From Clostridia bacterium (GTDB taxonomy: Bacteria; Bacillota; Clostridia; Christensenellales; Borkfalkiaceae): 36,562 bases of DNA. The notes under the pieces are model-generated. The model saw only the letters and a program-made list of their open reading frames with translations. It had not been told where the DNA came from and did not search any database. The translations under genes and the position numbers were made by a program. This document shows, in pieces, positions 16,517 through 34,475 of the stretch (positions within the stretch are counted from its first letter, which is position 1; the number at the start of each line of letters is the position of its first letter). The stretch covers positions 1-36,562 of the forward strand of contig JAGHJP010000060.1 in the NCBI GenBank assembly GCA_017886575.1, written 5' to 3'.

Positions 16517-16613
16517 TTTGCCGTGCCGTAAGCGAAAAGAGAAACTGAAATTTTCCGTCGGTAAGTGTGGAAAATGGAATGTTATAAAATCAATATATTG
16601 GAGGTTCAGTTGA

Positions 16614-17738
16614 ATGAATGAAGAGGTAACACAAAGCGCGTCCGGCGCAGCCGCGGCGCAGGCAGAAGTCAGGGTCAAACCCCTGTCCGACAACGCTTTC
16701 CTCGCCTTTTTCCAAAAGATCTGGCGTTGGTGGCTCGGCGTATGGTACGGATTCGCGGATAAGCACCCGAAGGGTTCGAAACTGATTCAGCAGTTTGTCG
16801 TCATGTTCCTGTTCAGCAACCTGGTCACCATTTTCCAGGCGCTCATCATGATTTTTTTGCCATATGCGTTTCAGGAGATCTGGGACGTGCCGTTCGTTTG
16901 GCCCGCCGTCGCGCTGCCCTGGCAGGATGCGGCAGGCAACGCCCTGAATTACGCGATCTTTAACGAACCGGTCAAGTTCCTGCTGGGGAACGATACTTTC
17001 ATTGCTTCCACGCCCGAACAGGTACAGCAATACATGGATCTGGGTTACGAATTGCAAATGTCGGGCCTCGGCAACTTCATTGCATTCGAAATTGCCACCT
17101 TCCTCGCGCAGTGTATCAATTTCCCGCTGCAGAGAAACATCACGTTCAAATCCAAAGGCAATCCCGTCGTGCAGGGTATTTGGTATTTCATCGGCTGGAT
17201 CGCCATTTCCGTGGGCGTCAATGCCATTTGGGGCATCATGAATCCCATCATGATGTGGTGGAACTGGAATGAAGCCGTCATTGCCATCATCAAGACCGTT
17301 CTGACGGGCGGCGTTTCCGTGGTCATCTTCTTCTTCATCTTCCTCGTCATCTTCCCCGATCAGCAGAAGCTGGCGGATAAAGCGGCGAAAAAGGCGGAAG
17401 CCCTGAAAAATTCGGGCGCGGCGGCGGAAGAGATTGCGGCGGCGGAAGCCAAGGCAGTCGAACTTGCCGAAAACGCAAAACTCGAAGCCGCCCGCAAAGA
17501 GGCTCTCGTCAGCGATTCCGCGGCAAACTCCCGCGCAGTCTCTTGGGAAGCGTCCAAGAAGATGCTTGAAAAAATGAAATCGGAAGGCAAATCCGAAGAG
17601 GATATCGCGGCGCAGGAGAAGATTGTCGCCGACAAGTACAATCAGGCGCTGGAAGCGGCGGTCAAGCGCGACGAGGCGATCGCGGCGAACGAAGCGGCGA
17701 TCAGAGAGGTCGAAGCCGCCCGCGCGGCGCGTGCCTGA
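16614..17738 (+). CDS. GtrA-like membrane protein with long charged helical tail
   Basis: A 374-residue protein. Hydrophobic segments lie near 58-82, 152-172, 187-207 and 220-247. The loop NFPLQRNITF at 169-178 fits the N-F-x-x-x-R-x-x-(V/T)-F signature of the GtrA family, small membrane proteins that help move lipid-linked sugars or accompany glycosyltransferases. Compared with the usual 120-150 residues, this one has an inserted segment of about 65 residues after the first helix and a C-terminal tail of about 125 residues (250-374) that is almost all Ala, Glu and Lys and predicted helical or coiled coil. GGAGG precedes ATG 16614. A terminator at 17771-17800 separates it from the glycosyltransferase gene that follows. 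The family call rests on the motif and topology and is moderate. Confidence 0.65.
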   Translation: MNEEVTQSASGAAAAQAEVRVKPLSDNAFLAFFQKIWRWWLGVWYGFADKHPKGSKLIQQFVVMFLFSNLVTIFQALIMIFLPYAFQEIWDVPFVWPAVALPWQDAAGNALNYAIFNEPVKFLLGNDTFIASTPEQVQQYMDLGYELQMSGLGNFIAFEIATFLAQCINFPLQRNITFKSKGNPVVQGIWYFIGWIAISVGVNAIWGIMNPIMMWWNWNEAVIAIIKTVLTGGVSVVIFFFIFLVIFPDQQKLADKAAKKAEALKNSGAAAEEIAAAEAKAVELAENAKLEAARKEALVSDSAANSRAVSWEASKKMLEKMKSEGKSEEDIAAQEKIVADKYNQALEAAVKRDEAIAANEAAIREVEAARAARA

Positions 17739-17770
17739 GCATGCAGACGTAAAAAATCAAAATAAGAGGC

Positions 17771-17800
17771 GGTCACGGCGGCGTTTGCGCCGCTGTGACC
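17771..17800 (+). terminator. Intrinsic terminator after the GtrA-like gene
   Basis: A 13-base stem (GGTCACGGCGGCG with CGCCGCTGTGACC, one G-U pair), loop TTTG, followed by the T-rich TTTGCCTTTTAT. It overlaps the first codons of the extended frame of the next gene, which supports the later start at 17840. Confidence 0.75.
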
Positions 17801-17839
17801 TTTGCCTTTTATAAAAAATACAAAGAGGAAAAGCGGATC

Positions 17840-18874
17840 ATGAAACTCATCACCTTTGCGGTGCCCAGCTATAATTCGCAGGATTACATGCGGCACTGCA
17901 TCGACACTCTTTTGACGGGCGGCGACGAGGTGGAGATCGTCATCGTCAACGACGGCTCCAAGGACGATACGGGCGCCATTGCCGACGAATATGCGGCGAA
18001 ATATCCCGACATCGTCGTTCCCGTGCACCAGGTAAACGGGGGGCACGGTTCGGGCGTCAACGCGGGCATGGATCGGGCGAAAGGGCTCTATTATAAGGTC
18101 GTCGATTCGGACGACTGGCTGGACACCGACGCCTTGAAGACCGTTCTCGGTACCATCCGTGCGCATGTGCAGGCGGGCGAAGGGGCCGATCTCTATATCT
18201 GCAATTTTGTCTACGAACATGTGTCGGACGGCACGTCCTACGTCAGTCATTACCGCAAAAAAATGCCCGTCGGCCGTTTCTTCGGCTGGGACGAGGTCAA
18301 ATCTTTCACCAAGTGGGAAATGCTGCTCATGCACTCCCTCATCTATCGCACAGAGGCGCTCCGCGCAAGCGGCATCCGCCTGCCCGAACACACCTTCTAT
18401 GTGGACAACTTGTTTTCCTATCAGCCGTTGCCCTGCATGAAGAAACTTTATTACGTCGACGTCGACCTTTACCGCTATTTTATCGGCAGAAGCGATCAGT
18501 CGGTCAACGTGGACAACATGACCAAGCGTTACGAACAGCAGATCCGTGTCATGCGGCTGATGACGGACGCCTATACTTACGACTACATCCGTTCGCAGAA
18601 GAAGGGCTTGCGCAAATACATGTTCCATGCGCTGGGCGCCATCATGATGAACACCATTTTTTTCACGGCGGGCGGCAAGGATAACAGGGAAACGCGCAAG
18701 GAAAAGCTGGACGAACTCTGGCGGCACATCAAAGAGCGGGACAAGAAATTGTATAAAAAACTTCGTTACCGTTCCCTGCCCGCCATCATCAGCTGGATGC
18801 CCTTCGGCATCCGCGGCGCGGTCTCGGCGGCGGGATATAAATTCCTCTGCAAATTCGTCAAACTCGGACAGTAA
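17840..18874 (+). CDS. Family 2 glycosyltransferase
   Basis: A 344-residue GT-A glycosyltransferase that transfers a sugar from a nucleotide donor. The N-terminal FAVPSYNSQDYMRHCIDTLL block, the VIVNDGSKDDTG donor-binding word and the metal-binding DSDDW near residue 95 define the family. There is no membrane segment strong enough to call, so it is probably a soluble or peripheral enzyme making a surface glycan. I chose ATG 17840 with GAGGAAAAG upstream; the longer start at 17795 lies inside a terminator hairpin. The ROK kinase follows after 21 bases and is probably cotranscribed. The acceptor and sugar cannot be read from the sequence. Confidence 0.9.
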   Translation: MKLITFAVPSYNSQDYMRHCIDTLLTGGDEVEIVIVNDGSKDDTGAIADEYAAKYPDIVVPVHQVNGGHGSGVNAGMDRAKGLYYKVVDSDDWLDTDALKTVLGTIRAHVQAGEGADLYICNFVYEHVSDGTSYVSHYRKKMPVGRFFGWDEVKSFTKWEMLLMHSLIYRTEALRASGIRLPEHTFYVDNLFSYQPLPCMKKLYYVDVDLYRYFIGRSDQSVNVDNMTKRYEQQIRVMRLMTDAYTYDYIRSQKKGLRKYMFHALGAIMMNTIFFTAGGKDNRETRKEKLDELWRHIKERDKKLYKKLRYRSLPAIISWMPFGIRGAVSAAGYKFLCKFVKLGQ

Positions 18875-22649: not shown

Positions 22650-23798
22650 TCACGCTTCGTCTACGTCGAGGGATATTTCGACGCCCGCCCGCGTGAAGTG
22701 CAGAATGTTATTCGCATATCCTCCGCCCGCCGTAGTGTGTCCGCTCAGATGCAGGAACGCCCATTCGGTCGGCGTGTCGGGGTCCGTCTCGGGCATCAGC
22801 GCGCCGAGGGTGTAGTCGTGATTTGCCACATAGTCAAAGGTCACGGTCACAGTGCCGCGTTCGATGTCGGCGGCAGCAAATTCGATGCGGACGCCTTCGC
22901 TCAGGCGCACGATCTTGTAATTATCGTCCGCAATGCCCTCCACGGTGTATTGCAGTCCGTCCCAATCCATGCCCTGGCAGAGTATGCCGTCATAGAAATC
23001 GAGGATCTGAACGGCGAACGTGTCGTGATCGTTCTCCACCGCGGAAAAATCGAACTCGATCGTTTCCTCCCAGGTCGTGACCTCGAACTCTTCCGCCTTG
23101 ACCACTTCTATTCTCTTGACGATCGTGGCGTTTTTCGAGGATACGCTGTTGTCCTGGATGTGCAGGGTGATGTAGGCGACGCCTTCGTTCGCTTTGGTCA
23201 CGTCTATGTCAACGCTGCCCGAATCGATGAACGTGCCGTCGCCGCTGAAAGAAAGCGCCAAGGCGTCGTCGGGAATGACCGATTGATCGGAAGAGGCGAC
23301 GTATGTACGGCTCGAAGCGGCGGGACTTTGCACGGTCTCGTCAAATTCGAACCGCAGGGGTACTTCGTAGCCGCCCGCCACGGGCACGATCTGGTCGGGG
23401 ACTTTTGTTTCCCACGAAAGGAAATCGTCCGAAAGCGTTTCGCTGTACGTTCCCAGGGTCACCTGCACGGTCACGTTCTCTGCGCCCATCGTCCAGGTGA
23501 AGGTGTTTTTGTTCGTCTGCGTCCCTTCTTCTCCGTTGAACGTCAGCGTTTCGAGATATTTTTCCGGGTCGGTGATCTCCACGGTGACCGTCACCGTTTC
23601 GCCCTCTTTCGCCCCGTATTTATCGGGGGTAATTTCCGCGCCCGCCACCGGCGTCACGGTCACGATGTACGTTTCGCCGCCGCTGCTCGCGGGCGGCGTG
23701 TCGTCGGTGCAGGCTGCCGCAAACAGCCCGAACGCAACGCATGTCGCCGCGGCAAGGACTGCCGCAAACGCCCGTCTGATTTTTCTGTGAAAGCCCAT
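22650..23798 (-). CDS. Secreted lipoprotein with a repeat-type beta domain, function unknown
   Basis: A 382-residue protein with a lipoprotein signal: positive start MGFHRKIRRA, a hydrophobic stretch, then lipobox FAAAC with Cys30, so it is anchored to the outer face of the membrane. After a short linker, the segment IVTVTPVAGAEITPDKYGAKEGETVTVTVEI with a following LTFNG and a TWTM pair near 95 looks like the bacterial repeat domain of the InlB-B/Flg_new type found in Bacillota surface proteins. The remaining 280 residues are beta-rich and unrecognised. I chose ATG 23798 because GGAGG lies eight bases upstream; the longer frame start at 23894 sits at the transcription start of the promoter 23895-23923 and has no ribosome site. 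It is a single-gene unit next to the regulator and fibre locus. Confidence 0.8.
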   Translation of the reverse strand: MGFHRKIRRAFAAVLAAATCVAFGLFAAACTDDTPPASSGGETYIVTVTPVAGAEITPDKYGAKEGETVTVTVEITDPEKYLETLTFNGEEGTQTNKNTFTWTMGAENVTVQVTLGTYSETLSDDFLSWETKVPDQIVPVAGGYEVPLRFEFDETVQSPAASSRTYVASSDQSVIPDDALALSFSGDGTFIDSGSVDIDVTKANEGVAYITLHIQDNSVSSKNATIVKRIEVVKAEEFEVTTWEETIEFDFSAVENDHDTFAVQILDFYDGILCQGMDWDGLQYTVEGIADDNYKIVRLSEGVRIEFAAADIERGTVTVTFDYVANHDYTLGALMPETDPDTPTEWAFLHLSGHTTAGGGYANNILHFTRAGVEISLDVDEA

Positions 23799-24127
23799 CG
23801 GGGATGCCTCCGAAAGCGTACAGCAGATTTGCGCCCGCGAAGGGGAGCGCCGCTCCTCTTCTTGCGGGGGTCGCTCTGTCCGCTTTCCGATCATAGTATA
23901 CTATATTTTCCCTCTTTTGTCAATGGTTTGAAAGAAAATTTCTTAAAACGAAATTTTATAACGGTTTTGTGCCTCTTTCCGTTTTGTTGCAGTGCGGCCG
24001 AAGAGGGGGCAAAACACCAAGCCCATGTCCGCGGCAAACGGGCAAAGGAGAAGAGCGTGCGCAGAGAGAAAGAAGTCAAACAAAAAGGGGCGAAACCGCG
24101 GGCATGGATAATCTTTTTTTGTTCTTC
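23799..24127. other. Gap between the lipoprotein and the XRE regulator
   Basis: These 329 bases hold the lipoprotein leader and promoter, an AAAATTTC/GAAATTTT inverted repeat (23935-23957) and a half-type copy of the dispersed motif (GGGCATGGAT, 24100-24109). No coding region was found. Confidence 0.6.
23895..23923 (-). promoter_or_regulatory. SigA-type promoter of the lipoprotein gene
   Basis: Minus strand TTGACA (23918-23923), 17-base spacer, TATACT (23895-23900). The leader to ATG 23798 is about 90 bases. Confidence 0.85.
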
Positions 24128-24448
24128 TTACGATTTGCCGGAGGACGCCATGGTATTGACGATGTTTTCCACGGCTTCCTGCAACGGCGGCGGGAGTTTT
24201 TTGTAGTTCTCGAAAAATTCTTTCTCCCGCGGCGTCAGAGGTACGGTGTTCTCTTCTTCCGTAAAGAATTGGGCGAGCGTAATGCCCAGCGTGTTGCAGA
24301 TGATCTCCAGGTTGCGGATGGAGGGAACGGTCCCGCGGGAAAAAGTGTTCGCCAGCGTCGATTGGTTCAGTCCGGAAAGTTCTGCCAGCCTGTAAACGCT
24401 CATGTTCCGTTCCAAACGCAGTTTGTTCAGTTTTTCTATCACGTCCAT
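24128..24448 (-). CDS. XRE-family transcriptional regulator, SinR-like in size and context
   Basis: A 106-residue regulator. Residues 6-60 form a helix-turn-helix domain (LRLERNMSVYRLAELSGL then NQSTLANTFSRG as recognition region, and PSIRNLEIICNTLGITLAQFF). The last 40 residues (LTPREKEFFENYKKL, then LQEAVENIVNTMA) form a short helical tail typical of small clostridial XRE proteins. Start ATG 24448 has GAAAGGCGG upstream. It is divergent from the SipW/TasA-type locus and its promoter region overlaps that of the locus. In Bacillus subtilis the XRE protein SinR (111 residues) represses tapA-sipW-tasA, so a similar role is inferred here from size and position, not from close sequence similarity. 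Confidence 0.88.
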   Translation of the reverse strand: MDVIEKLNKLRLERNMSVYRLAELSGLNQSTLANTFSRGTVPSIRNLEIICNTLGITLAQFFTEEENTVPLTPREKEFFENYKKLPPPLQEAVENIVNTMASSGKS

Positions 24449-24478
24449 ATTGTTCAGCCGCCTTTCTTTTTTATTTTA

Positions 24479-24541
24479 CTATAAAAAAAATTATAGAATA
24501 AAGTATATTTGAGTTGACATTATAGTTAAATTATGCTATAA
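24479..24541. promoter_or_regulatory. Mirrored CTATAA/TTATAG words over the divergent promoter (candidate operators)
   Basis: CTATAA-N6-TTATAG at 24479-24496 overlaps a TATAAT on the minus strand (24490-24495) that could be the -10 box of the regulator gene. TTATAG-N10-CTATAA at 24520-24541 overlaps the spacer and -10 box of the locus promoter. A repressor binding both would control both genes. Confidence 0.5.
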
Positions 24542-24542
24542 T
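24514..24542 (+). promoter_or_regulatory. SigA-type promoter of the SipW/TasA-like locus
   Basis: TTGACA (24514-24519), 17-base spacer, TATAAT (24537-24542), both perfect. It predicts a leader of about 260 bases before the first gene, starting just before three tandem repeats. Confidence 0.9.
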
Positions 24543-24551
24543 ATAACCAAT

Positions 24552-24602
24552 GGAAAGGTATAATTTCCGGAAAGGTATAATTTCCGGAAAGGTATAATTT
24601 CT
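24552..24602. repeat. Three tandem 17-bp palindromic repeats
   Basis: Units 24552-24568, 24569-24585 and 24586-24602: the first two are identical, the third differs in its last base. Each unit is GGAAA, seven bases (GGTATAA), TTTCC, so it is an interrupted palindrome in itself. They begin about three bases past the expected transcription start. They may be operator sites or an RNA feature; each also contains TATAAT. Confidence 0.85.
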
Positions 24603-24809
24603 CGTTAAACTTAGTTGCTTATCGGGAAATTTTTGCGTTTTATGCGGAAAATCTGTCATGAAAACGGCGCTTCGCGCATAGAATGAAACGGGACAAGCCG
24701 TGCCGACCGTAAACGGGCGCGGAATGCGGTGAAATTCGGAAGAATTTTACCGCTTTGCGCGCCCGTCGGTCGGGTCCGCAAATCCGAGAAAAAGGGGTAC
24801 AATACACTC
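24603..24809 (+). promoter_or_regulatory. Long leader of the fibre-like locus with a strong hairpin
   Basis: The leader contains a long hairpin at 24713-24766: outer arms ACGGGCGCG and CGCGCCCGT, a small internal loop, and a 12-base inner stem (GCGGTGAAATTC with GAATTTTACCGC, one G-U pair) around GGAA. No T-run follows, so it is not a terminator. It matches no riboswitch known to me. Confidence 0.6.
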
Positions 24810-25505
24810 ATGAAAAGACAAAAAACCAAGGGCGAGATCGCGTGGATCGCGGTCATGGTCACGCTGACCGTCCTGTTCCTTCCCGTACTCATCGTCAACG
24901 TCGTGCTCATCGTCAAGGGCAGCGTCGAGCCCGACGTCCCGCCCTCCGTGTTCGGAATCGCGCCGCTGGCGGTCACGTCCGGCTCCATGGCCGGCGAAGC
25001 CGAGGACAGTTTCGACACGGGCGCGCTCATCTTCGTGAAACTCTTGGACGAAGAGGAGAAGAACGAACTGCAGGAGGGCGACGTGGTCACCTTCCGCCAT
25101 CAGGACATTTACGTCACCCACCGCATCGTGCTCGTTGAGTATGACGGGGCGGGGCAGATCCGCTCGGTCATCACGCAGGGCGACGCCAACAACATCACCG
25201 ACGGCGCAATTCCCCTCGAAAACGTCGTGGGGCAATGCGTCGGGCATGTCGCGGGACTCGGCGGGTTCGCCATGTTTTTGCAGACCCCCGCGGGTATTCT
25301 CGTGTTCGTCGGCGTGCCCGTCGTCGCGTTCATCGCCATAGACATTCTCCGCATCGCGCTCTACAACCGCAAGGTGCGCCGGGAAGAACTTGCCGCCGGC
25401 GGCGAGGGCGATCTCGAACGGGAATTGCGGGACAAGGAGGAAGAGCTTGCCCGCTTGCGCGCCCTCGTGGCGGAGCAGGGAAAGGACGAAACGGAAGAGC
25501 AGTAG
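24810..25505 (+). CDS. sipW: SipW-type (ER-type) signal peptidase I, first copy
   Basis: A 231-residue membrane peptidase that cleaves signal peptides of TasA-type surface proteins. A membrane helix at about 11-34 is followed by the catalytic block TSGSM (Ser59), the YVTHR block with His104 in place of the lysine used by ordinary bacterial SPase I, and TQGDANN with Asp125. This Ser-His plan is that of the ER/SipW class. A second membrane segment lies at about 150-180, then a 45-residue charged tail with a coiled-coil look (RELRDKEEELARLRALV). There is an insertion of about 20 acidic residues after the serine block. I chose ATG 24810 (AAGGGG upstream); the GTG at 24729 would sit inside the leader hairpin. 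Confidence 0.9.
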   Translation: MKRQKTKGEIAWIAVMVTLTVLFLPVLIVNVVLIVKGSVEPDVPPSVFGIAPLAVTSGSMAGEAEDSFDTGALIFVKLLDEEEKNELQEGDVVTFRHQDIYVTHRIVLVEYDGAGQIRSVITQGDANNITDGAIPLENVVGQCVGHVAGLGGFAMFLQTPAGILVFVGVPVVAFIAIDILRIALYNRKVRREELAAGGEGDLERELRDKEEELARLRALVAEQGKDETEEQ

Positions 25506-25544
25506 CGCTCTTTCGGGGCGCGCTTTGTTCCCCGTTCAAAAGTT

Positions 25545-25581
25545 GTAAACGCGGCGGTTTGCCACACGCCTGCCGCTTTAC
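25545..25581. other. Inverted repeat between sipW copy 1 and the TasA-like gene
   Basis: GTAAACGCGGC pairs with GCCGCTTTAC (one bulged C) around 16 bases. TTGCCA (25559-25564) and CATAAT (25581-25586) with 16 bases between could form a second promoter for the TasA-like gene. It may let the subunit be made in different amounts from the peptidase. Confidence 0.4.
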
Positions 25582-25620
25582 ATAATAAAATAAATTTCAT
25601 TTTAATAGGAGAATGAAAAA

Positions 25621-26280
25621 ATGACAAAGAAAAAGGGTATTGCATCCAAGTTATTCCTCGTGCTGGTCGCCCTCACCCTGCTCAGCTGCTGCTTCCTCGG
25701 CACGACGTTCGCCCGTTACACCAGCGGCGGCACGGGCAGCGCCACCACGGGCGTTGCGCTGTGGAAAATCGACGTGACAGATGGGATCGCCACCGGTGAG
25801 CATACCGTTGACTTCGGTAAACTGTCTCCGTCCGATGAGGCTTGGTCCTCGTTCAGCGATAAGAGAACGAATGAAACGGGCGCTGTGGTACTTGCAACGA
25901 TCGTAAATAGAGGCGAAGTTTCGGCGGATGTCACGATCGATGTCGGTGAAGCGGTGATCAGCGGCACGGCGTCTTATGGCAGCGGCATTACCGAAGAAAA
26001 TGCTTCTACCGGTACGGCGGCGGCAAGCGAGGCGCAGGTGAAAAATCTGTTTTCGATCGCAATTACCGTGATGGATGCAGGCGGCTCGCCGGTCGAGGCA
26101 AATGAGGGCGTTTATACGCTTGCGCCCGGAGCTACGTTGAGCATTCGCGGCAATGTGACCTGGACGTCGACCGATGATTGGGGTCAGCAGGTTTCGGATG
26201 CGATCGATACCTGGGTAGGTCAGAATATGACGAGCGTTTCGTACAGCGTTTCCTACACCGCCGTCCAGGCAAGCGAATAG
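25621..26280 (+). CDS. TasA/camelysin-like secreted fibre subunit
   Basis: A 219-residue secreted protein. The N-terminal signal runs from KKKGIASK through a hydrophobic stretch to GTTFARYTSGG; the A-R-Y at 31-33 after the hydrophobic core is the mark of SipW-dependent signal peptides (TasA, camelysin). The mature part is beta-rich, Thr/Ser/Gly-rich and lacks cysteines, with the V-N-R-G-x-V-S-A-D-V and PGATLSIRGNVTW stretches that fit the jellyroll of this family. It has no sortase signal, so it would stay attached by assembly into fibres or through partners. AGGAG precedes ATG 25621. It lies 115 bases after sipW copy 1 and is the best candidate for the major subunit. Its middle part is lower in G+C than its neighbours. 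The family call is from the signal and size; sequence similarity to TasA itself is weak. Confidence 0.75.
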   Translation: MTKKKGIASKLFLVLVALTLLSCCFLGTTFARYTSGGTGSATTGVALWKIDVTDGIATGEHTVDFGKLSPSDEAWSSFSDKRTNETGAVVLATIVNRGEVSADVTIDVGEAVISGTASYGSGITEENASTGTAAASEAQVKNLFSIAITVMDAGGSPVEANEGVYTLAPGATLSIRGNVTWTSTDDWGQQVSDAIDTWVGQNMTSVSYSVSYTAVQASE

Positions 26281-26588
26281 CCCGCGGCTTAACGGCGCGC
26301 GGGAACAGACATGATGTACATAGCCGGAAGGGCGCCCGTCCCGAATGTGTGGCGGCAGGGCGGCACGGCATCCGGCGTCGGGGCGAGTTTTCGCCCCCGC
26401 ATTCGTCCGCCGCGCAGGGCGTCGCGTACAGCGGCGCTTTGCGCGGCATGAGGCGGATGTATCTTTTAAGGGAAAATTTGAGAAAAAGTAAACATGCAAT
26501 TTTTTGTCCGCAAGGAAAAATTGCCCGTGGCGGCGTTTGCGCCGCAAGCAGTAAAATTCCGAAAGTAACGGAAGGATGAGAAAGAACC
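26281..26588 (+). other. Gap between the TasA-like gene and the anchor-like gene
   Basis: These 308 bases hold a CCCGCG/CGCGGG inverted repeat just past the stop (26281-26303), a GGGGCGA-GTTTT-CGCCCC hairpin near 26379-26397, and an eight-base CAATTTTT/AAAAATTG inverted repeat (26494-26520) followed by GGCGGCG-TTT-GCGCCGC. None has a proper T-run. They may slow or process the transcript after the subunit gene. No coding region was found. Confidence 0.5.
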
Positions 26589-27767
26589 ATGGATAAAACA
26601 GACAGGAACAAACAACCGAATCAATCGGGGAACAAAGAGGAAAACACCGCCGTTCTTTCTTCCCTTCCGAAGGACATAAGCGCGGGCGGCAGTGCGCCCG
26701 TGTCCGTCGGGACGAACGGTCCCGTTTCCATCGGCGTCGACGTCTCCACGGGCGCCGTCACCGTCGGCGTGCAGGAGGGCGGCATTCCGTCCCCCGCGCC
26801 CGCGCCCCGTCCCGCGATATATTCTCCCGCGCCCGCGCCTGCGCCTGTCGTCGCGCCGGCACGACCCGCGGCACCCGTGCCCGCGGCAAAGCCCGCTTCC
26901 GTGGCATCCATGCCCGCGGGGAATGCGGCGCGGAAAACCATCCCGCAGGCGGTCTCTTCCGCGCCCGCCGCGCCGCAAAAAGTGACGGCGATCGACGTAA
27001 AGCCGCCCGTGCGCGGCAAGGTGGTCGACCGCAAGGGCAAGCGGGTGGGCGCCATCCGCGGCGGCGAACTCTTTGACCGCAAGGGCACGTACCGCGGCGT
27101 GTTCCGCAAGGAAAAGACCAACGTCTTTTTGTACCGCAATGAACGCCGCGCGGCGTACATAGACAAAAACGACAACATTTTAACGCCTTCGGGGCAATAT
27201 GTGGGCACCATACGGCGCTTCCGCTGGCTGCCCGTCCTGCTCGCCCTGCTCTTTCTGGCGCTTGCCACGGTGACGTCGGCGACGCTGGCGGCGTATTACA
27301 TTTCCTTTTCCGGCCGCTATGCTCCCGTGCTCTTCATGACGGACGAAAGCGGCGAGAATTGGCAGGACACCGAAAACCTGGACGTGTTCTTCAACGAACG
27401 TTTCGGCGATTCGGTCATCGCCCCGGGCATGGACGGCTCCTATTACTTCACTTTGGAAAATCAAAGCCCCGACACGGTGGAGTTTGCTCTCGCCTTCCGC
27501 GAGGACAACGCCTACGGCATCGGCCTCGTCTACCGCCTGTGGCGGGACGGTTCGCTTCTCGGCGGGGGCGGCTGGCTCTCCGCAGCGGATCTCGGCGTGG
27601 AAGATATGACCGTCGAAGGGGAGTCCTCCACGGTGTTCCGCCTGGAATGGTATTGGCGGGACAACGACGCGCTGGATACCGCCGCGGGCGAGAACGGCGC
27701 GCAGTATACATTGCACATCGACTTTTCCGGCTCGGTTGCCCGTCATCAGAGCGAAACGGCGGCGTAA
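26589..27767 (+). CDS. Membrane-spanning protein with cytoplasmic beta-hairpin region and TasA-like outer domain
   Basis: A 392-residue protein of unrecognised family. Residues 1-135 are low-complexity, rich in Ala, Pro, Val and Gly. Residues 142-208 hold repeated short units of the form G-x-V-x-D-x-x-G-x-x-V/Y-G (VVDRKGKRVGAIRGG, LFDRKGTYRGVFRK, YIDKNDNILTPSGQYVGTI), which look like beta-hairpins of a cytoplasmic domain. A single membrane helix lies at 213-235, ending TLAAYYISFSGRY. The outer part (240-380) has VIAPGMDGSYYFTLENQSPDTVEF and LVYRLWRDG, like the beta-sandwich of TasA-family proteins in other Clostridia. With no normal signal peptide it is inside-to-outside and would anchor or sense the fibre. 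It is placed between the subunit and the second signal peptidase gene, 33 bases upstream of the latter. Confidence 0.6.
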   Translation: MDKTDRNKQPNQSGNKEENTAVLSSLPKDISAGGSAPVSVGTNGPVSIGVDVSTGAVTVGVQEGGIPSPAPAPRPAIYSPAPAPAPVVAPARPAAPVPAAKPASVASMPAGNAARKTIPQAVSSAPAAPQKVTAIDVKPPVRGKVVDRKGKRVGAIRGGELFDRKGTYRGVFRKEKTNVFLYRNERRAAYIDKNDNILTPSGQYVGTIRRFRWLPVLLALLFLALATVTSATLAAYYISFSGRYAPVLFMTDESGENWQDTENLDVFFNERFGDSVIAPGMDGSYYFTLENQSPDTVEFALAFREDNAYGIGLVYRLWRDGSLLGGGGWLSAADLGVEDMTVEGESSTVFRLEWYWRDNDALDTAAGENGAQYTLHIDFSGSVARHQSETAA

Positions 27768-27800
27768 CGCCCGTTGCGGCAGAGAGGAGGGCAATAGGGT

Positions 27801-28364
27801 ATGCGCAAGGCGTTACACATTTTACGGATCGTCGTCAAAGTGCTGTTGGGCTTGGTCATGGGGCTGCTGCTCGTGTATAACGTGTGGTCGCTCGTGTCCC
27901 GTCTGGCGTTCGGCAACGACCGTCCCGCCCTGTTCGGGTATACGGGCGCGGTGGTCGTTTCGGGCAGCATGGAGCCCGTCATTTCGGTCAACGATTTCAT
28001 CGTCGTGCACGCGGAGGAGAACTACGCCGTCGACGACGTCATCATGTTTTACGACGATACGCGCGGGGAGTACGTCACCCACCGCATCATTCTTGCCGCC
28101 GACGGGTACTATACCACGCAGGGCGACGCCAATAACGCGCCCGACCCGTTCAGCGTGCCGCAAAGCGCGGTCGTGGGCAAAGTGGTGTGGGTGATGGAAG
28201 GCTTCGGCGCGGCGGTGCGGTTCGTGCAGAGCCCCGCGGGCTTCTTTGCCGTCATCGGCGCGGGCATCCTTGTCTGGCTGGGCATGGATGTCATCTCCGG
28301 ACTGCAGGCAAGAGCAAAAAGGGACGGAGCGGAGAGCGCCGTCGAAGGGGATGAGAAAAAATGA
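27801..28364 (+). CDS. SipW-type (ER-type) signal peptidase I, second copy
   Basis: A 187-residue membrane peptidase of the same Ser-His class as the first copy: a membrane helix at about 10-33, then VVVSGSMEPVI with Ser56, YVTHRII with His94, and TQGDANN with Asp109. A second membrane segment lies at about 146-166 and the tail is short. It lacks the acidic insertion and coiled tail of the first copy and keeps the classical SGSMEP word. A GGAGGG site precedes ATG 27801. Its last four bases ATGA also begin the next gene, so translation is coupled. Two copies in one locus suggest different clients for each. Confidence 0.9.
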   Translation: MRKALHILRIVVKVLLGLVMGLLLVYNVWSLVSRLAFGNDRPALFGYTGAVVVSGSMEPVISVNDFIVVHAEENYAVDDVIMFYDDTRGEYVTHRIILAADGYYTTQGDANNAPDPFSVPQSAVVGKVVWVMEGFGAAVRFVQSPAGFFAVIGAGILVWLGMDVISGLQARAKRDGAESAVEGDEKK

Positions 28365-29923
28365 AAGAGAAAAAGCAACGGGCGGAAAGGAAAAAATTAA
28401 AGCAAATTCCCGTCGTATCCTACCTTTGCTGGCTCCTCGCCATGAGCGTCCTGTTCACCGGCGTGACTTTTTCGCGCTATACTTCTCGGGTCAGCGGGGA
28501 CATCGCCACGGGCATCACGCCCTTTGTCGCCTCGTACACTCTCGACGACTTTTCTTCCACCGACTTCGTCAACATGGACTATTGGACGCCCGTCGAAGGG
28601 GCGGAAGGCGAAGAAAACCAGACCAGCGCTGGCAGGACGGCGCGTACCGTTCGCATCACCGTCAACAATTATAACACAGAGGACGTCGGCGCAAACGGGC
28701 TCCCTTCCCGTTACAGTGCGGTCGATCTGCAGGCCTCCGTCCGCCTGCGTCTCCCCTCCGAGTTGGCGGATAACCTCGTCCTGCAGGTGCGCGAGGTCGT
28801 AGCGGAAAACAATACCGTCGACCGCGTGCCCGTCACCTCGCAGTACATTCTCGGAAATTTCATCTATCAACTCAACGGCGGGGGTGGCACGGAATACACT
28901 TATGCGACCGACGGAAACGGCGGCCGCGTGTACCGCACGCAGGCGTCCGTGACTCTTGACACGCGGGATTTCACCGATTATTCGGCGCTGGCGGGCTCTC
29001 CCGACGAAACGCTGACCGTCACGGGCACGATTGATGAAAACGGCGGCACGGTCGTGGCGCGGGAACAGACGTCGGAAGGCGCGGAGAGTAACGTCATCTC
29101 CGTCACGGCGTCGCGGGAAACGGTCAACTATGCCGTCGGCTTCCGCCGCGGCGTCACCGCAAACGACTTCCAATCGCAGCTCTTCCTCGATTTGCAGAAA
29201 GAGATGCTGTTCTATACCATCGACATCACGCTCCCCGAACTCTATCTCGCGACAGCGAACGGGCCGCAGAGCCGCACTTTTGAACTCTTCTTCACCCTCG
29301 CCGAGCGCGTGGACTATGCCGCCATCGAGTGGCAGGATGAGTGGAACGCCTATCTCGCGGGGCCCTCGGCGGCGGAAAACGCGACCGTCGACGACGCAAA
29401 GATCCTCGGCTATCACTTCGACGCCGACGCCGGGACATACGCATATGCAGACGGCATCATGACCGACCGGTCAGATGAAACCGTGGTGCGCATCACCAAT
29501 ACATACGATTATGCGACGAATGCAAGCGTCCTTTCCTTTCAGCATATCGAACCCATCGACACGGACGCGGCGGTCTATGCCCACCCCGCTGAACACATAT
29601 ACGCCCATTCGGGCGGCGCATTGACCGAGGTGACGGGGGATACGCTGACGGGGCTGCTCAAAGGAGATTTGAAGAATTTGACTGCCCTGTTTTCGGGCGA
29701 TTATTACGGCTTGTGCAACAATTTGGCGGACACGCCGGAAGAGGAGCGGTACTATATTTCTTTCAACGGCCTTTCGCCCGATCCCCTCGACGGCGGTGAA
29801 AACGTTATCTATTCGCTTCACGAATCGCTCAGCCGCAAATACCAGACGCAGCTCACCGTGCTCTTCGTGCAGAGGTCCGAAGTCGCGGGCATGGGTACTT
29901 CCGCGGAAGGAGGCGCCGCATGA
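28361..29923 (+). CDS. Large secreted protein with SipW-type signal, function unknown
   Basis: A 520-residue protein. A positive start (MKEKKQRAERKKLKQ), a hydrophobic stretch at 17-37 and GVTFSRYTSRVSGDIATG give a signal very like that of the TasA-like subunit (S-R-Y at 38-40). The mature part is acidic and rich in Thr, Asp and Asn, predicted mostly beta; I see no known catalytic motif, cell-wall anchor or repeats. The first 80 mature residues (DIATGITPFVASYTL) resemble the start of TasA-family proteins. It starts within the stop codon of the second signal peptidase (ATGA) and ends within the start of the beta-helix gene (ATGA), so the three genes are tightly coupled. A role as minor or tip subunit is an inference. 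Confidence 0.65.
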   Translation: MKEKKQRAERKKLKQIPVVSYLCWLLAMSVLFTGVTFSRYTSRVSGDIATGITPFVASYTLDDFSSTDFVNMDYWTPVEGAEGEENQTSAGRTARTVRITVNNYNTEDVGANGLPSRYSAVDLQASVRLRLPSELADNLVLQVREVVAENNTVDRVPVTSQYILGNFIYQLNGGGGTEYTYATDGNGGRVYRTQASVTLDTRDFTDYSALAGSPDETLTVTGTIDENGGTVVAREQTSEGAESNVISVTASRETVNYAVGFRRGVTANDFQSQLFLDLQKEMLFYTIDITLPELYLATANGPQSRTFELFFTLAERVDYAAIEWQDEWNAYLAGPSAAENATVDDAKILGYHFDADAGTYAYADGIMTDRSDETVVRITNTYDYATNASVLSFQHIEPIDTDAAVYAHPAEHIYAHSGGALTEVTGDTLTGLLKGDLKNLTALFSGDYYGLCNNLADTPEEERYYISFNGLSPDPLDGGENVIYSLHESLSRKYQTQLTVLFVQRSEVAGMGTSAEGGAA

Positions 29924-32900
29924 ACGAACAGAAGAAGAGAATTGCCGTCAGCGTCCTTTTGGGCCTGCTCATCGTCACCCTGATGAGCTTTTCCCTCACG
30001 GCGGCGCGATACTCCGCCGAGAAGGAATCGGACAGCAGATATGACGGCGAATTGGTCTATACCGTGTCGGACAACGTGGTCATCACCACGGTGGACGAAT
30101 TTTTCAACGCCATCGAAAACGGTTACACGAACATCCAGATCTCCGACGATATCGACAACCCGCTCATCATCACGGGCAGCCCGCCCGACGTCAATTCCGA
30201 CCTGACCATCGACCTCAACGGCAATGAATTGCAGCGCAACGACCGCGAGCCCGTGCTCAACGTCACCGAGGGCGTCCGCCTCACCATCATCGACTCCAAA
30301 GGGGGCGGCGGCTTTTATAACCCCGTCGGCAGCGTGTTCAACGTTGACGGCGGCACCATCACCGTCGCAGCGGGACTCTTTGAAAGCGGCCCCCGCAACG
30401 GCGAAAAACTGCCGGGCGGCAGCGCGCAGCATGCCTCGGAATATGCCTCGCCCTCGGGAAACAGCTGGACGACGCCCGCGGGCGCAAGCATTTCGCAGTC
30501 CGGTTCCTTCACGGTCTATGACGGAACGGGGAGCGGCAATACCTATGTGCCGAGCCCGACCGCGGTCTCCATGCCCGTCATCGTCCCCGCTGTCACGGAC
30601 AGCGGCACGACGGCGGACGGGGAAACGTACGTCACCGTCAACGGCAACATGTATTTCGACGAAGGCAGCAATCCGTCTTTCGGCGGCACTTACGTCGTTT
30701 CCGACACCTATCTCTATTTCACCATCGACGACAACAACAACATCACAAACAACGCCTACGCCAACACGGGCACCAGCGCAGACTTTTATTATAGTTATTA
30801 CATGACTTTCAACGGGAACGTCGGCGAACACGGCGCATATGAATATGCCGGTCCCGCGGAACCGGCGGAGGGGAACTTCGCCCGCGTCACCGTGTACGGC
30901 TATAACGGCGTAAAGGCAACGTCTGTCGAAGTGGCAAATAGCGACCCGTTCTCCGCCATCCGCCTGCAGGGCGGCAATCTGTATGCGCGCGGCGGCGATT
31001 ACGTTTCTTATTTCGGGGAAGAAGATACATTTTCGGTATATGCCACGGGCGGCTTCATGTCCATCTCTCAGGGCAGTACGTTCGAGGCGCACGGCCGCGG
31101 GGTCTGTATCGACCTGTCCTATGCGGATGCGATTTCGCATGGCTTGCAGGAAGACGCCGACTTATACGTCAGCGGCGGCCGTTTCTATTCGCAGGGCGGC
31201 GACATCGTTCACCTCACGAACGGCTTCATGCAGGTCAACGGCGGCTCGTTCACCAAGAACGCCGCGGACGAATCGGCGTCCGACAACGGCGCCGCCATCC
31301 ACATCGAAGGCGGCAGGCTCAACGTGCAGGGCGCAAGCGCGGATCCGGAAGGCGCCATTTCGTTCTCCCTCTCCGGTTCCAATGTAACGGGCGTCCGCTC
31401 GGCATCGGGCGGGAGCACAGCAGGGGGCGCTGCAGCTGGCACGGTCACCCTTTCCAACGTCAATTTCACCTTCAACGGCGGTGTGGGCGGCGGCAGCGGT
31501 TATAGCAACAATTACGGGCTGAACGTTGCGGGCGGCACGGTCGAAACCGAAAATTGCTCCGTCTATCTCGCCGATTCGAACAGTTTCGGCATTTACACGA
31601 ACGGCGGCGTCGTTTCTTGCAGCGGCATGACGACCATCAACGTGCTCGGCGCCACGTCCTCGGGCATTCTTGCCTACGGCGGCAGCGTGACCATTTCGGG
31701 CACATATACCTCCACGGTCGGCATCGGCGGTACGAATACTCTTTCCAGCACTGCCATCAGTTCGGAAGGCGGCTCCGTCACGCTGAACGGCATGTCCACG
31801 ATCACGACTGACGGGCTGGGCATCACTTCGCGCGGCAGCGGTACGATCACCGTGAACGGCACGCTCGATTTGACTTCCAACCACGGCACCGCCATCTATA
31901 TGTCCGGCGGCTCGCTGACTACGGCGGCAAATTCGACGGTCGACATTATAAGTACCATTTCCGACGAGTATAGTTGGGTGACAGGTTCTACCGTTTCCAA
32001 CATCTATAACGGCGTGTACATTCAGGGCGGCTCTCTGACCGCGAACGGCACGTTCAACGTCACCCACGAGGGCGAGGCGAATGATACGAGCTATCAACAT
32101 TATGACGATTTGGTTGTGAGAAGCTATGCCGTGCGCGTGGAGGGGACGACTTCGACGACCGTCGCATTAACAAAGGGAACGATTAAAAATACAGTCGGCG
32201 GCGGCGTGTATGTAAGCGGTACGGAAAACGTCAATGTGTACCTCGGCGGCTGGATGTTAAACGGCGAGAGGCAATGGGAAAGGACGGATTCCGTGGAAAT
32301 GGCGGTTATAACCGAGGGTAAGGGCACGAGCGAAGAATATTATGCCCATAACGACGGTACTCCGACGTCAAGTGAAGATGCATGGAACTTCAAAAAGAAC
32401 GAGAGCGGGGGGCATGCCATTGAAATCGTCGGCGGCACCGTGCACATCAACGGCGGCGATTACAGCGCGGCAATGGGCAACGGTATTCTGGTCAGCAACG
32501 GTACTGCGTATATTTATGACGGCGACTTTGTCGGGGCTGATTCATACGAAGCCAATACTGATGGAGACCTGGCGGGCGCGGCGGCGTCGTATGGATTCAA
32601 GATGTACGGCGGCACGGCGTACATAACGGGCGGAACGTTTGGGAATACCGGTCAATCGGGTAGCGGTGCATTCATTACCGCTTCAAGCAGTAACAGTGCA
32701 ACGGCTGAAATTTCAAATGCGACGTTTGATGTCGGCGGTACGACCGGTTTTTCCGTACACCGAAACGCAACGGTAACCTTCAAAGGTAATTCTAACACTG
32801 TGCGGGGCGTTTCAACGGGACTTGCAATTGAAGATGTTTCTTATGGTGCCGGTGACGGCAGTCAGACGGGTTCGTCCGTGACCATTGAGGGCGGTACTTT

Positions 32901-33351
32901 TGCGGGGACCAACAGCACGGGAGAAAACGATAATACAAACGGTATCTATTATGGCGAGGGCAGTTCTTCCTTGACGATCACCGGCGGTACGTTTACGGGT
33001 GCTACTCGTTCGGGGTTGTATATCGCAGTCAATCCGGGCAGCAACATTCGGCTTTCGGGCGGGACGTTCACGGGAAATGATTATCAGATAACTGACACGT
33101 ATAGAAATTCTTTATTTGGCAGTTCTCGAACATACTACGGGAATGGAGGTGCAATCAGCACACCGGTTGGTAGGAGTTATAATTGGAGGGGCTATTATGA
33201 ATTTAGCGGATTAGCAGTGCGATTCACATCAATTCTTAATGGAGCCCATGCTTATGTAGATGGAGACTCTGGTCGGCAAGTAGATGAAGGGACGGGAGAT
33301 GGATACATTGCCAATACCGTTTCTCAACATAGAAGTGTAACTATTTGGTAA
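29920..33351 (+). CDS. Giant secreted right-handed beta-helix protein with SipW-type signal
   Basis: A 1143-residue protein. The N-terminal signal (hydrophobic at 8-28, then LTAARYSAEK with A-R-Y at 29-31) matches the SipW-dependent type seen in the two secreted proteins upstream. After an N-terminal cap with VDEFFNAIENGYTNIQISDDI and LTIDLNGNEL (as in pectate-lyase-like helices), the rest consists of many short turns of the form G-G-x-(V/L)-x-(V/I)-x-G-x-(F/S/T), such as GGSVTLNGMST, GGTVHINGGDYS and GGTAYITGGTF. These are typical of parallel beta-helix adhesins and enzymes. No catalytic residues of a pectate lyase could be assigned, so an adhesin or scaffold is more likely. No anchor or sorting motif is seen. 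Base composition falls sharply along the gene (see findings). A strong terminator follows. Confidence 0.8.
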   Translation: MNEQKKRIAVSVLLGLLIVTLMSFSLTAARYSAEKESDSRYDGELVYTVSDNVVITTVDEFFNAIENGYTNIQISDDIDNPLIITGSPPDVNSDLTIDLNGNELQRNDREPVLNVTEGVRLTIIDSKGGGGFYNPVGSVFNVDGGTITVAAGLFESGPRNGEKLPGGSAQHASEYASPSGNSWTTPAGASISQSGSFTVYDGTGSGNTYVPSPTAVSMPVIVPAVTDSGTTADGETYVTVNGNMYFDEGSNPSFGGTYVVSDTYLYFTIDDNNNITNNAYANTGTSADFYYSYYMTFNGNVGEHGAYEYAGPAEPAEGNFARVTVYGYNGVKATSVEVANSDPFSAIRLQGGNLYARGGDYVSYFGEEDTFSVYATGGFMSISQGSTFEAHGRGVCIDLSYADAISHGLQEDADLYVSGGRFYSQGGDIVHLTNGFMQVNGGSFTKNAADESASDNGAAIHIEGGRLNVQGASADPEGAISFSLSGSNVTGVRSASGGSTAGGAAAGTVTLSNVNFTFNGGVGGGSGYSNNYGLNVAGGTVETENCSVYLADSNSFGIYTNGGVVSCSGMTTINVLGATSSGILAYGGSVTISGTYTSTVGIGGTNTLSSTAISSEGGSVTLNGMSTITTDGLGITSRGSGTITVNGTLDLTSNHGTAIYMSGGSLTTAANSTVDIISTISDEYSWVTGSTVSNIYNGVYIQGGSLTANGTFNVTHEGEANDTSYQHYDDLVVRSYAVRVEGTTSTTVALTKGTIKNTVGGGVYVSGTENVNVYLGGWMLNGERQWERTDSVEMAVITEGKGTSEEYYAHNDGTPTSSEDAWNFKKNESGGHAIEIVGGTVHINGGDYSAAMGNGILVSNGTAYIYDGDFVGADSYEANTDGDLAGAAASYGFKMYGGTAYITGGTFGNTGQSGSGAFITASSSNSATAEISNATFDVGGTTGFSVHRNATVTFKGNSNTVRGVSTGLAIEDVSYGAGDGSQTGSSVTIEGGTFAGTNSTGENDNTNGIYYGEGSSSLTITGGTFTGATRSGLYIAVNPGSNIRLSGGTFTGNDYQITDTYRNSLFGSSRTYYGNGGAISTPVGRSYNWRGYYEFSGLAVRFTSILNGAHAYVDGDSGRQVDEGTGDGYIANTVSQHRSVTIW

Positions 33352-33557: not shown

Positions 33558-34037
33558 ATGAAATCTTCCGAAAAAGCCGTCTGCGGCGTGCTCACCGTCC
33601 TGCTCGGCGTGCTGTTCATCGCCCTGCAGGGGGACGTGGTGTCCGTCGCCATGACCCTTTTGGGCGCGGCGCTCATCGTGTGGGGCGTGCTCGACCTCTT
33701 CGAACGTCGCTTCGAGCCGTCCCTCATCAAGATCGTCGCGGGCGCGGTCATCGTGCTCTTCGGCTGGCTCATCGTCGGCGCGGTTCTCTACATCCTGGCG
33801 GCGGCGCTCCTCGCCCTCGGCGCGTATTTTTTGTACGTCCGCCTGAAAAACAGAAGCTGCTGCGCTTCGCTGCCCGATCTGCTGCTTTACTGCGCCCCGC
33901 CCGTCGTCTGCATGCTCGCCGCCTTCATTCTGTTCTTCAACCAAGGCTGCGCCGCGGCGTGGGTGTTCATCGTGTCGGGCGTGTTCATCGTGACGGAGGG
34001 GGGCTTGCTCCTGTGGGAAGCCTTTCGCAAAAATTGA
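33558..34037 (+). CDS. DUF308-like small membrane protein
   Basis: A 159-residue protein made almost entirely of membrane helices in pairs (about five or six), with the VLTVLLGVLFIALQGD, LLGAALIVWGVLDLF and VAGAVIVLFGWLIVGAVLYI repeats common to the DUF308/HdeD-like family. The function of the family is unknown outside the acid-resistance HdeD case. A GGAGG site lies seven bases before ATG 33558, just after a GGGCGG-CCGCCC hairpin (33529-33544). The next gene follows after 45 bases on the same strand. Confidence 0.75.
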   Translation: MKSSEKAVCGVLTVLLGVLFIALQGDVVSVAMTLLGAALIVWGVLDLFERRFEPSLIKIVAGAVIVLFGWLIVGAVLYILAAALLALGAYFLYVRLKNRSCCASLPDLLLYCAPPVVCMLAAFILFFNQGCAAAWVFIVSGVFIVTEGGLLLWEAFRKN

Positions 34038-34082
34038 AAAAAGGGGGAACGTTTTGCGCCGCGTTGCGCATAGCATGAAAGT

Positions 34083-34475
34083 ATGGATCGCAAGAATATG
34101 GAAACGGGATATTGTCAGCTCAAGCAAAAGGAAGTCGTCAACGTCAAGGACGGCAAAAAACTCGGCAGGGTGTGCGACGTGGTGTTCACCTTCCCCGAGG
34201 GCAAAACGCTCGGCGTCGTCGTGCCCGGCGGCAGGGGCTTTTTCCGCCCCAACCTGTTCATTCCGCTCGGGGACATTATCAAGATCGGTGAGGACGCCGT
34301 GCTGGTGGAAGTGCGCTCCGCCCCTAAGGAACCCCCGCGCGGACGCGGGCGGGGCGGGTACTGCACGGACGACGGGCCTTCCCGCGGGGGAAACGTTTTC
34401 CCGCCGCCCTATCCGCCCCGCGACCCCTGTTCGCCCTGTTCTCCGCCCCGCTCTTCCTTCGGCGACGACGAATGA
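34083..34475 (+). CDS. YlmC/YmxH-type PRC-barrel protein
   Basis: A 130-residue protein. Residues 10-80 are a PRC-barrel: LKQKEVVNVKDGKKLGRVCDVVFTFPEGK, then LGVVVPGGRGFFRPNLFIPLGDIIKIGEDAVLVEV, which matches the YlmC/YmxH family found in spore-forming Bacillota and linked to sporulation. The remaining 50 residues are a low-complexity tail rich in Pro, Gly, Arg and Cys that the normal family lacks. The ribosome site is weak for ATG 34083; ATG 34098 is the alternative. The gene ends at a shared hairpin terminator at 34480-34510. Confidence 0.8.
   Translation: MDRKNMETGYCQLKQKEVVNVKDGKKLGRVCDVVFTFPEGKTLGVVVPGGRGFFRPNLFIPLGDIIKIGEDAVLVEVRSAPKEPPRGRGRGGYCTDDGPSRGGNVFPPPYPPRDPCSPCSPPRSSFGDDE

Follow-up and report, generated by a model that had tools for sequence, protein, structure and literature searches.

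A six-gene SipW/TasA-type locus of gut Clostridia that probably encodes a surface protein fibre

The SipW systems described in the literature for Bacillus and Clostridium perfringens have one peptidase each. In tapA-sipW-tasA of Bacillus subtilis, a SipW-type peptidase is paired with a subunit of beta-sandwich fold and donor-type N-terminus (PMC9674648, PMC10151520), a pairing that is predicted for the locus described here as well; in TasA of B. subtilis, the donor strand is the mature N-terminus (PMC9674648). The Bacillus cereus region sipW-tasA/capP/calY resembles the present locus in bringing together several TasA-type proteins and one assembly factor independently of sortase, and differs, in the part of its description available to us, in having one peptidase and in the absence of a TM anchor and a giant end protein (PMC13082335). 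C. perfringens sipW-bsaABCRSD, compared by its description, is likewise a clostridial SipW operon for a filamentous polymer and accessory secreted proteins, with one peptidase and a two-component regulator in the operon (PMC7395162).

The present locus lies in a 36,562-nucleotide stretch of DNA (hereafter the window) from a member of the Borkfalkiaceae, whose assembly comprises 1.53 Mb in 61 contigs and is 92% complete. It departs from the B. subtilis system by a second peptidase, by a TasA-like protein that is anchored in the membrane, by its 520-aa and giant end proteins, and by its regulator, which is not SinR. TapA is missing: its model TIGR04087 matched none of the window proteins and only one of 13 TasA-like relatives, weakly (E 0.001). 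The camelysin/Peptidase_M73 family PF12389 was matched neither in the organism's own genome nor in 38 TasA-like relatives. Judged from the open-licence literature, this six-gene kit is apparently undescribed, and an earlier description elsewhere is possible.

Layout and conservation of the locus

All seven genes named in a preliminary description of this DNA were confirmed as open reading frames of the window, in the same places and order (a slash marks the predicted end of the signal peptide):

24128..24448, minus strand: divergent XRE (Cro/C1-type HTH) regulator; Pfam HTH_26 (E 5e-9) and HTH_3
24810..25505, plus strand: SipA, SipW/ER-type signal peptidase I; TIGR02228 69.6 bits; motifs TSGSM, VTHRI, QGDAN
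25621..26280, plus strand: predicted TasA-like fibre subunit; AlphaFold pLDDT 87.9; signal end TTFA/RYTSGG, motif in 38 relatives
26589..27767, plus strand: membrane anchor, 392 aa; one TM helix at about residues 212-235, TasA-like outer domain
27801..28364, plus strand: SipB, second SipW/ER-type signal peptidase I; TIGR02228 72.7 bits; motifs VSGSM, VTHRI, QGDAN
28361..29923, plus strand: 520-aa secreted all-beta protein; FS/RYTS; AlphaFold pLDDT 88.7, pTM 0.84
29920..33351, plus strand: 1143-aa secreted GG-repeat end protein; AA/RYSAEK; proposed fibre tip or adhesin

The ATGA overlaps noted earlier for the last three genes were read in the DNA at 28361 and 29920, so that the 520-aa gene overlaps both of its neighbours by four bases. 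For SipA, the ATG at 24810 behind AAAAAGGGG was picked from this ribosome-binding site as a more likely start than that of the longest open reading frame at 24729. Both peptidases exceed the TIGR02228 cut-off of 51.85 bits and carry the Ser-His-Asp motifs (SGSM, THR, GDxN), whereas their scores with the SipW model (70 bits for SipA, 69 for SipB) fall under that model's own cut-off of 190. Most peptidase homologues likewise hold THR, GDxN and the serine motif, as SGSM or as a variant outside the strict pattern. The own genome encodes two TIGR02228 peptidases over the cut-off, both at the locus, and a single TasA-like gene, also at the locus. On these features, SipA and SipB are classed as dedicated SipW-type (ER-type, Ser-His-Asp) signal peptidases.

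Their presumed substrates carry a SipW-type cleavage region (TFA/xY-like), cleavage itself being predicted. The (A/S)-R-Y seen after the signal stretch of the three secreted proteins recurs in all three families (32-38 relatives each) as A, S or G before the cut, followed by R or K and then Y or F, so the motif is not due to chance. As for a sortase route, neither LPXTG nor a C-terminal hydrophobic tail occurs in the sequences of the locus's secreted proteins. Pfam and NCBIfam gave no useful match for the TasA-like, anchor, 520-aa and 1143-aa proteins, profile searches against PDB sequences found no relative, and the proteins tried had no match in plasmid and phage collections.

Conservation of the gene order in related genomes had been set beforehand as a test of the preliminary description. 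Order and strand are kept in 37 of the 38 non-redundant loci that hold all six genes, and the exception is attributed to an over-extended ORF start. Genomes with the same cluster include Candidatus Scatosoma, Gallimonas, Coproplasma and Borkfalkia, and L105-L108, four of the collected six-gene loci, lie in genomes of other families within this taxonomic order. An anchor profile run over 398 genomes of the family matched 70, of which 49 at E <1e-80. The locus is more widely conserved than the preliminary description could know. Stop-start overlaps are frequent across loci at the anchor-SipB junction and at that between the 520-aa and 1143-aa genes. Pairwise distance matrices correlate (r 0.43-0.74, reached by none of 500 permutations) for five genes, the end protein being left out because some of its pairs share no columns; this is what a jointly inherited unit would be expected to give, though shared species history also contributes.

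Outside this core, a broader anchor profile (A7), run against 398 genomes from across the phylum, matched 8. Distant Firmicutes show a reduced order of SipW, TasA, anchor, SipW, small subunit and end protein. In L139, these are a SipW of 211 aa, a TasA-like protein of 267, an anchor of 436, a SipW of 175, a small subunit of 181 and an end protein of 1364; L138 has a SipW of 247, a TasA-like protein of 208, an anchor of 449 and a SipW of 171, then proteins of 194 and 299. The upstream peptidase of L137 is absent within the fetched stretch, and L103, L110 and L044 are additional two-peptidase forms. A search of the class around the L139 genome found no second case, which makes the spread outside the core sporadic. 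In another family of the order (L111, L112, L114), the homologue of the end protein stands, together with a secreted RY/KY protein, on the opposite side of TasA-anchor-SipW, an arrangement that reads as a rearranged version of the locus. The organism and its relatives are nearly all represented by metagenome assemblies, and a fibre is here predicted from sequence.

The XRE gene lies outside the conserved unit: at a threshold of 60 bits it neighbours the six genes in 6 of 37 loci, and at 30 bits in about 12. Its protein matched no SinR model and reached E 0.014 with SlrR. SinR-like control was accordingly not borne out. Beside the XRE gene, positions 22650-23894 (minus strand) hold a gene for what is likely a secreted lipoprotein (LFAAACTDD), which has a weak InlB-B-repeat-like match, and the locus is followed at 33558-34475 by a DUF308-like membrane protein and a YlmC/YmxH-type PRC-barrel protein. 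The tasA-anchor gap (26281-26588) is long and holds strong hairpins, GGGGCGAGTTTTCGCCCC and one more before TCTTTTAA. Terminator-like hairpins occur in this gap in 9 of 36 loci vs 3 of 32 for the sipA-tasA gap. By analogy with C. perfringens bsaA, they are perhaps an attenuator; a terminator after tasA acting as a C. perfringens-like stoichiometry switch was dropped, 9 of 36 loci being too patchy.

The TasA-like subunit and the membrane anchor

Archaeal bundling pili and the threads of Sulfolobus are donor-strand filaments, and to our knowledge neither has a comparable six-gene operon. For the AlphaFold model of the mature TasA-like protein, the top nine rows of VIA-align included 7ueg, the bundling pilus of Pyrobaculum (Z 6.7, 132 residues aligned); FimG (Z 6.4); 7pnb, the thread of Sulfolobus (Z 5.9); and 8aur, the fibre of TasA (Z 5.9, 150 residues aligned). 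For the archaeal filaments, the likeness is one of predicted fold, none being shown in sequence. Foldseek gave weak matches (E 1e-3 or worse). The finding of four kinds of donor-strand filament among the fold neighbours is suggestive, every Z lying below 8, a range that a common beta-sandwich alone can reach. In the model, the first 18 residues lie outside the sheets and the first ten have low confidence, yet the mature N-terminus is the sixth most conserved of 169 segments. A conserved segment of low confidence that stays outside the sheets of the monomer is what would be expected of a donor strand.

The anchor has a single TM helix and no second one, with an inner N-terminal part of about 210 aa, and the charge pattern places the N-terminus inside in 67 of 76 homologues. 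Within the inner part, window positions 26982-27200 encode a weak PRC-barrel/beta-flower-like stretch, which may act in the cytoplasm as a sensor or as a site for a partner. Homology of the outer domain was assessed with mature-only profiles and reversed sequences as a control, the best of which gave E 0.26. Against the TasA-like subunits of distant loci (L103, L139, L137, L140, L138), the anchor outer-domain profile reached E 2e-11 to 9e-8, and against other SipW-type secreted proteins E 2e-16; the mature-only profile of the window's TasA-like protein was weaker against the same distant subunits (4e-5, 2e-4). In hhalign, the outer domain aligned with the small adaptors over 129 columns (probability 94, E 1.4e-7). 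These profile comparisons show the outer domain to be homologous to TasA-type subunits, which bears out the preliminary description of this protein. In L138 and L139, a Pro-rich linker separates the TM helix from the TasA-like domain, and L139 has a carboxypeptidase-regulatory-like domain there as well; such segments are what a wall-crossing anchor would need. In the window anchor, the TasA-like domain and the TM helix adjoin, with no spacer that could span the wall. SipB is encoded immediately downstream of the anchor in related loci, reduced forms included.

The 520-aa protein and the end protein

The model of the 520-aa protein is all-beta, and its two terminal parts pack against each other. 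Foldseek and VIA found integrin-type beta-sandwiches alone (Z 6.3 or less), which align these N- and C-terminal parts jointly around a large insert; the likeness was not taken as evidence of homology. In hhalign, the protein was weakly similar to TasA (E 0.0024) and to the small TasA-like adaptors that occupy the same place in distant loci (E 3.9e-4, probability 36). The latter link lost its significance on mature sequences with reversed controls (best E 0.014). A first profile had joined the TasA-like and 520-aa proteins through their shared signal peptide, so the two were not kept as one family and separate profiles were used. A TasA-like fold is at most weakly indicated. The link to these proteins draws mainly on the place of the gene, the type of signal and the likeness of a C-terminal strand. 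We propose that the 520-aa protein is an adaptor with a large insert.

The 1143-aa protein has 26 aligned relatives with 30-48% identity to it, and neither a Pfam match nor a PDB sequence match was found. Its GG-rich repeat layout has weak periodicity, and a beta-helix-like architecture, in this protein as in its core family, is a tentative reading of these repeats. Elsewhere the end protein at this same last position is built differently, with Ig-like repeats for L139, both GLUG and Listeria-Bacteroides (Flg_new) repeats for L110 and DUF285 for L103, and many end proteins exceed 1000 aa. An unchanging chassis whose repeat-built end protein is exchanged would fit a tip or adhesin, and the adhesin-like position of the large end protein is supported. 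Two loci (L028, 7032-10634; L032, 2449-6603) have their genes for the 520-aa protein, the end protein or both broken into two or three frames, which may reflect assembly error, decay or phase variation. L037 has a second match to the end-protein profile (440 bits) at 14896-18726, upstream of the six genes and running off the stretch.

Proposed fibre and alternative readings

The earlier reading is supported in part, namely for a SipW-processed TasA-type fibre locus of conserved order, and the six-gene kit probably builds a thin surface protein fibre. The locus is best called a variant form of the SipW/TasA fibre kind, outside PF12389. We favour, at a probability of roughly 0.6, a sortase-independent, TasA-type surface fibre that uses donor strands and consists of anchor, shaft and adaptor plus a large end protein for binding. 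The cleavage, donor-strand pairing, order of parts and adhesion that we infer would proceed as follows: (i) SipA and SipB cut the A/RY-type signal peptides of the TasA-like, 520-aa and 1143-aa proteins; (ii) each cut would expose an N-terminal segment serving as donor strand for the next subunit; (iii) the membrane protein would stay unreleased, display its TasA-like domain at the surface and tether the fibre to the cell; (iv) TasA-like subunits would form the shaft, which the 520-aa protein would join to the large end protein as the binding part.

The strongest competitor, which we consider unlikely though worth serious attention, is a biofilm matrix as in Bacillus or C. perfringens, in which TasA-like fibres are released without a tip and the 520- and 1143-aa proteins are TapA- or CapP-like matrix or chaperone parts. 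The BsaA polymers of C. perfringens are indeed mainly extracellular, with BsaB and BsaC merely reinforcing the pellicle (PMC7395162), and CapP of B. cereus drives the assembly of TasA-CalY filaments (PMC13082335). However, a single-pass anchored TasA-like protein stands beside its own peptidase in nearly every locus, which argues for a cell-bound fibre, and the end protein is a large repeat protein that is exchanged from lineage to lineage. The missing wall-spanning spacer in the window anchor and the size of many end proteins would also suit a display device that forms no polymer, the membrane and TasA-like proteins making a short scaffold that holds a large repeat protein, enzyme or binder, at the membrane. 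We regard this as improbable, since mere display would not need a separate TasA-like gene with filament subunits among its fold neighbours. Least credible is a general SipW secretion island whose products share the A/RY signal and a neighbourhood and form no joint structure. Parts up- and downstream do vary outside the core family, but dozens of species keep the six genes in one order and on one strand, often with stop-start overlaps, and even in reduced forms the anchor and SipB genes remain neighbours.

For the favoured cell-bound fibre, chaperone-usher pili (Fim/Pap) offer a working likeness in their anchor, shaft, adaptor and tip and in donor-strand exchange. The locus is not a member of that class: it has no outer membrane, chaperone or usher, and relies on SipW-type processing. 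More tentatively, and at somewhat less than even odds, it may be a Gram-positive counterpart, a cell-anchored donor-strand fibre with two dedicated SipW peptidases, a fixed chassis (anchor, shaft, adaptor) and an exchangeable tip, present in gut Clostridia and sporadically in the phylum. If this is true, TasA-type fibres would not be confined to released matrix material; they could also make up an entire pilus-like machine, furnished with an anchor, an adaptor and a tip that can be swapped, and such a machine would sit in gut bacteria known mostly from metagenomes. Protein families that match nothing in Pfam would gain testable roles, and the reason for two peptidases at one locus would become a direct question for a cleavage assay.
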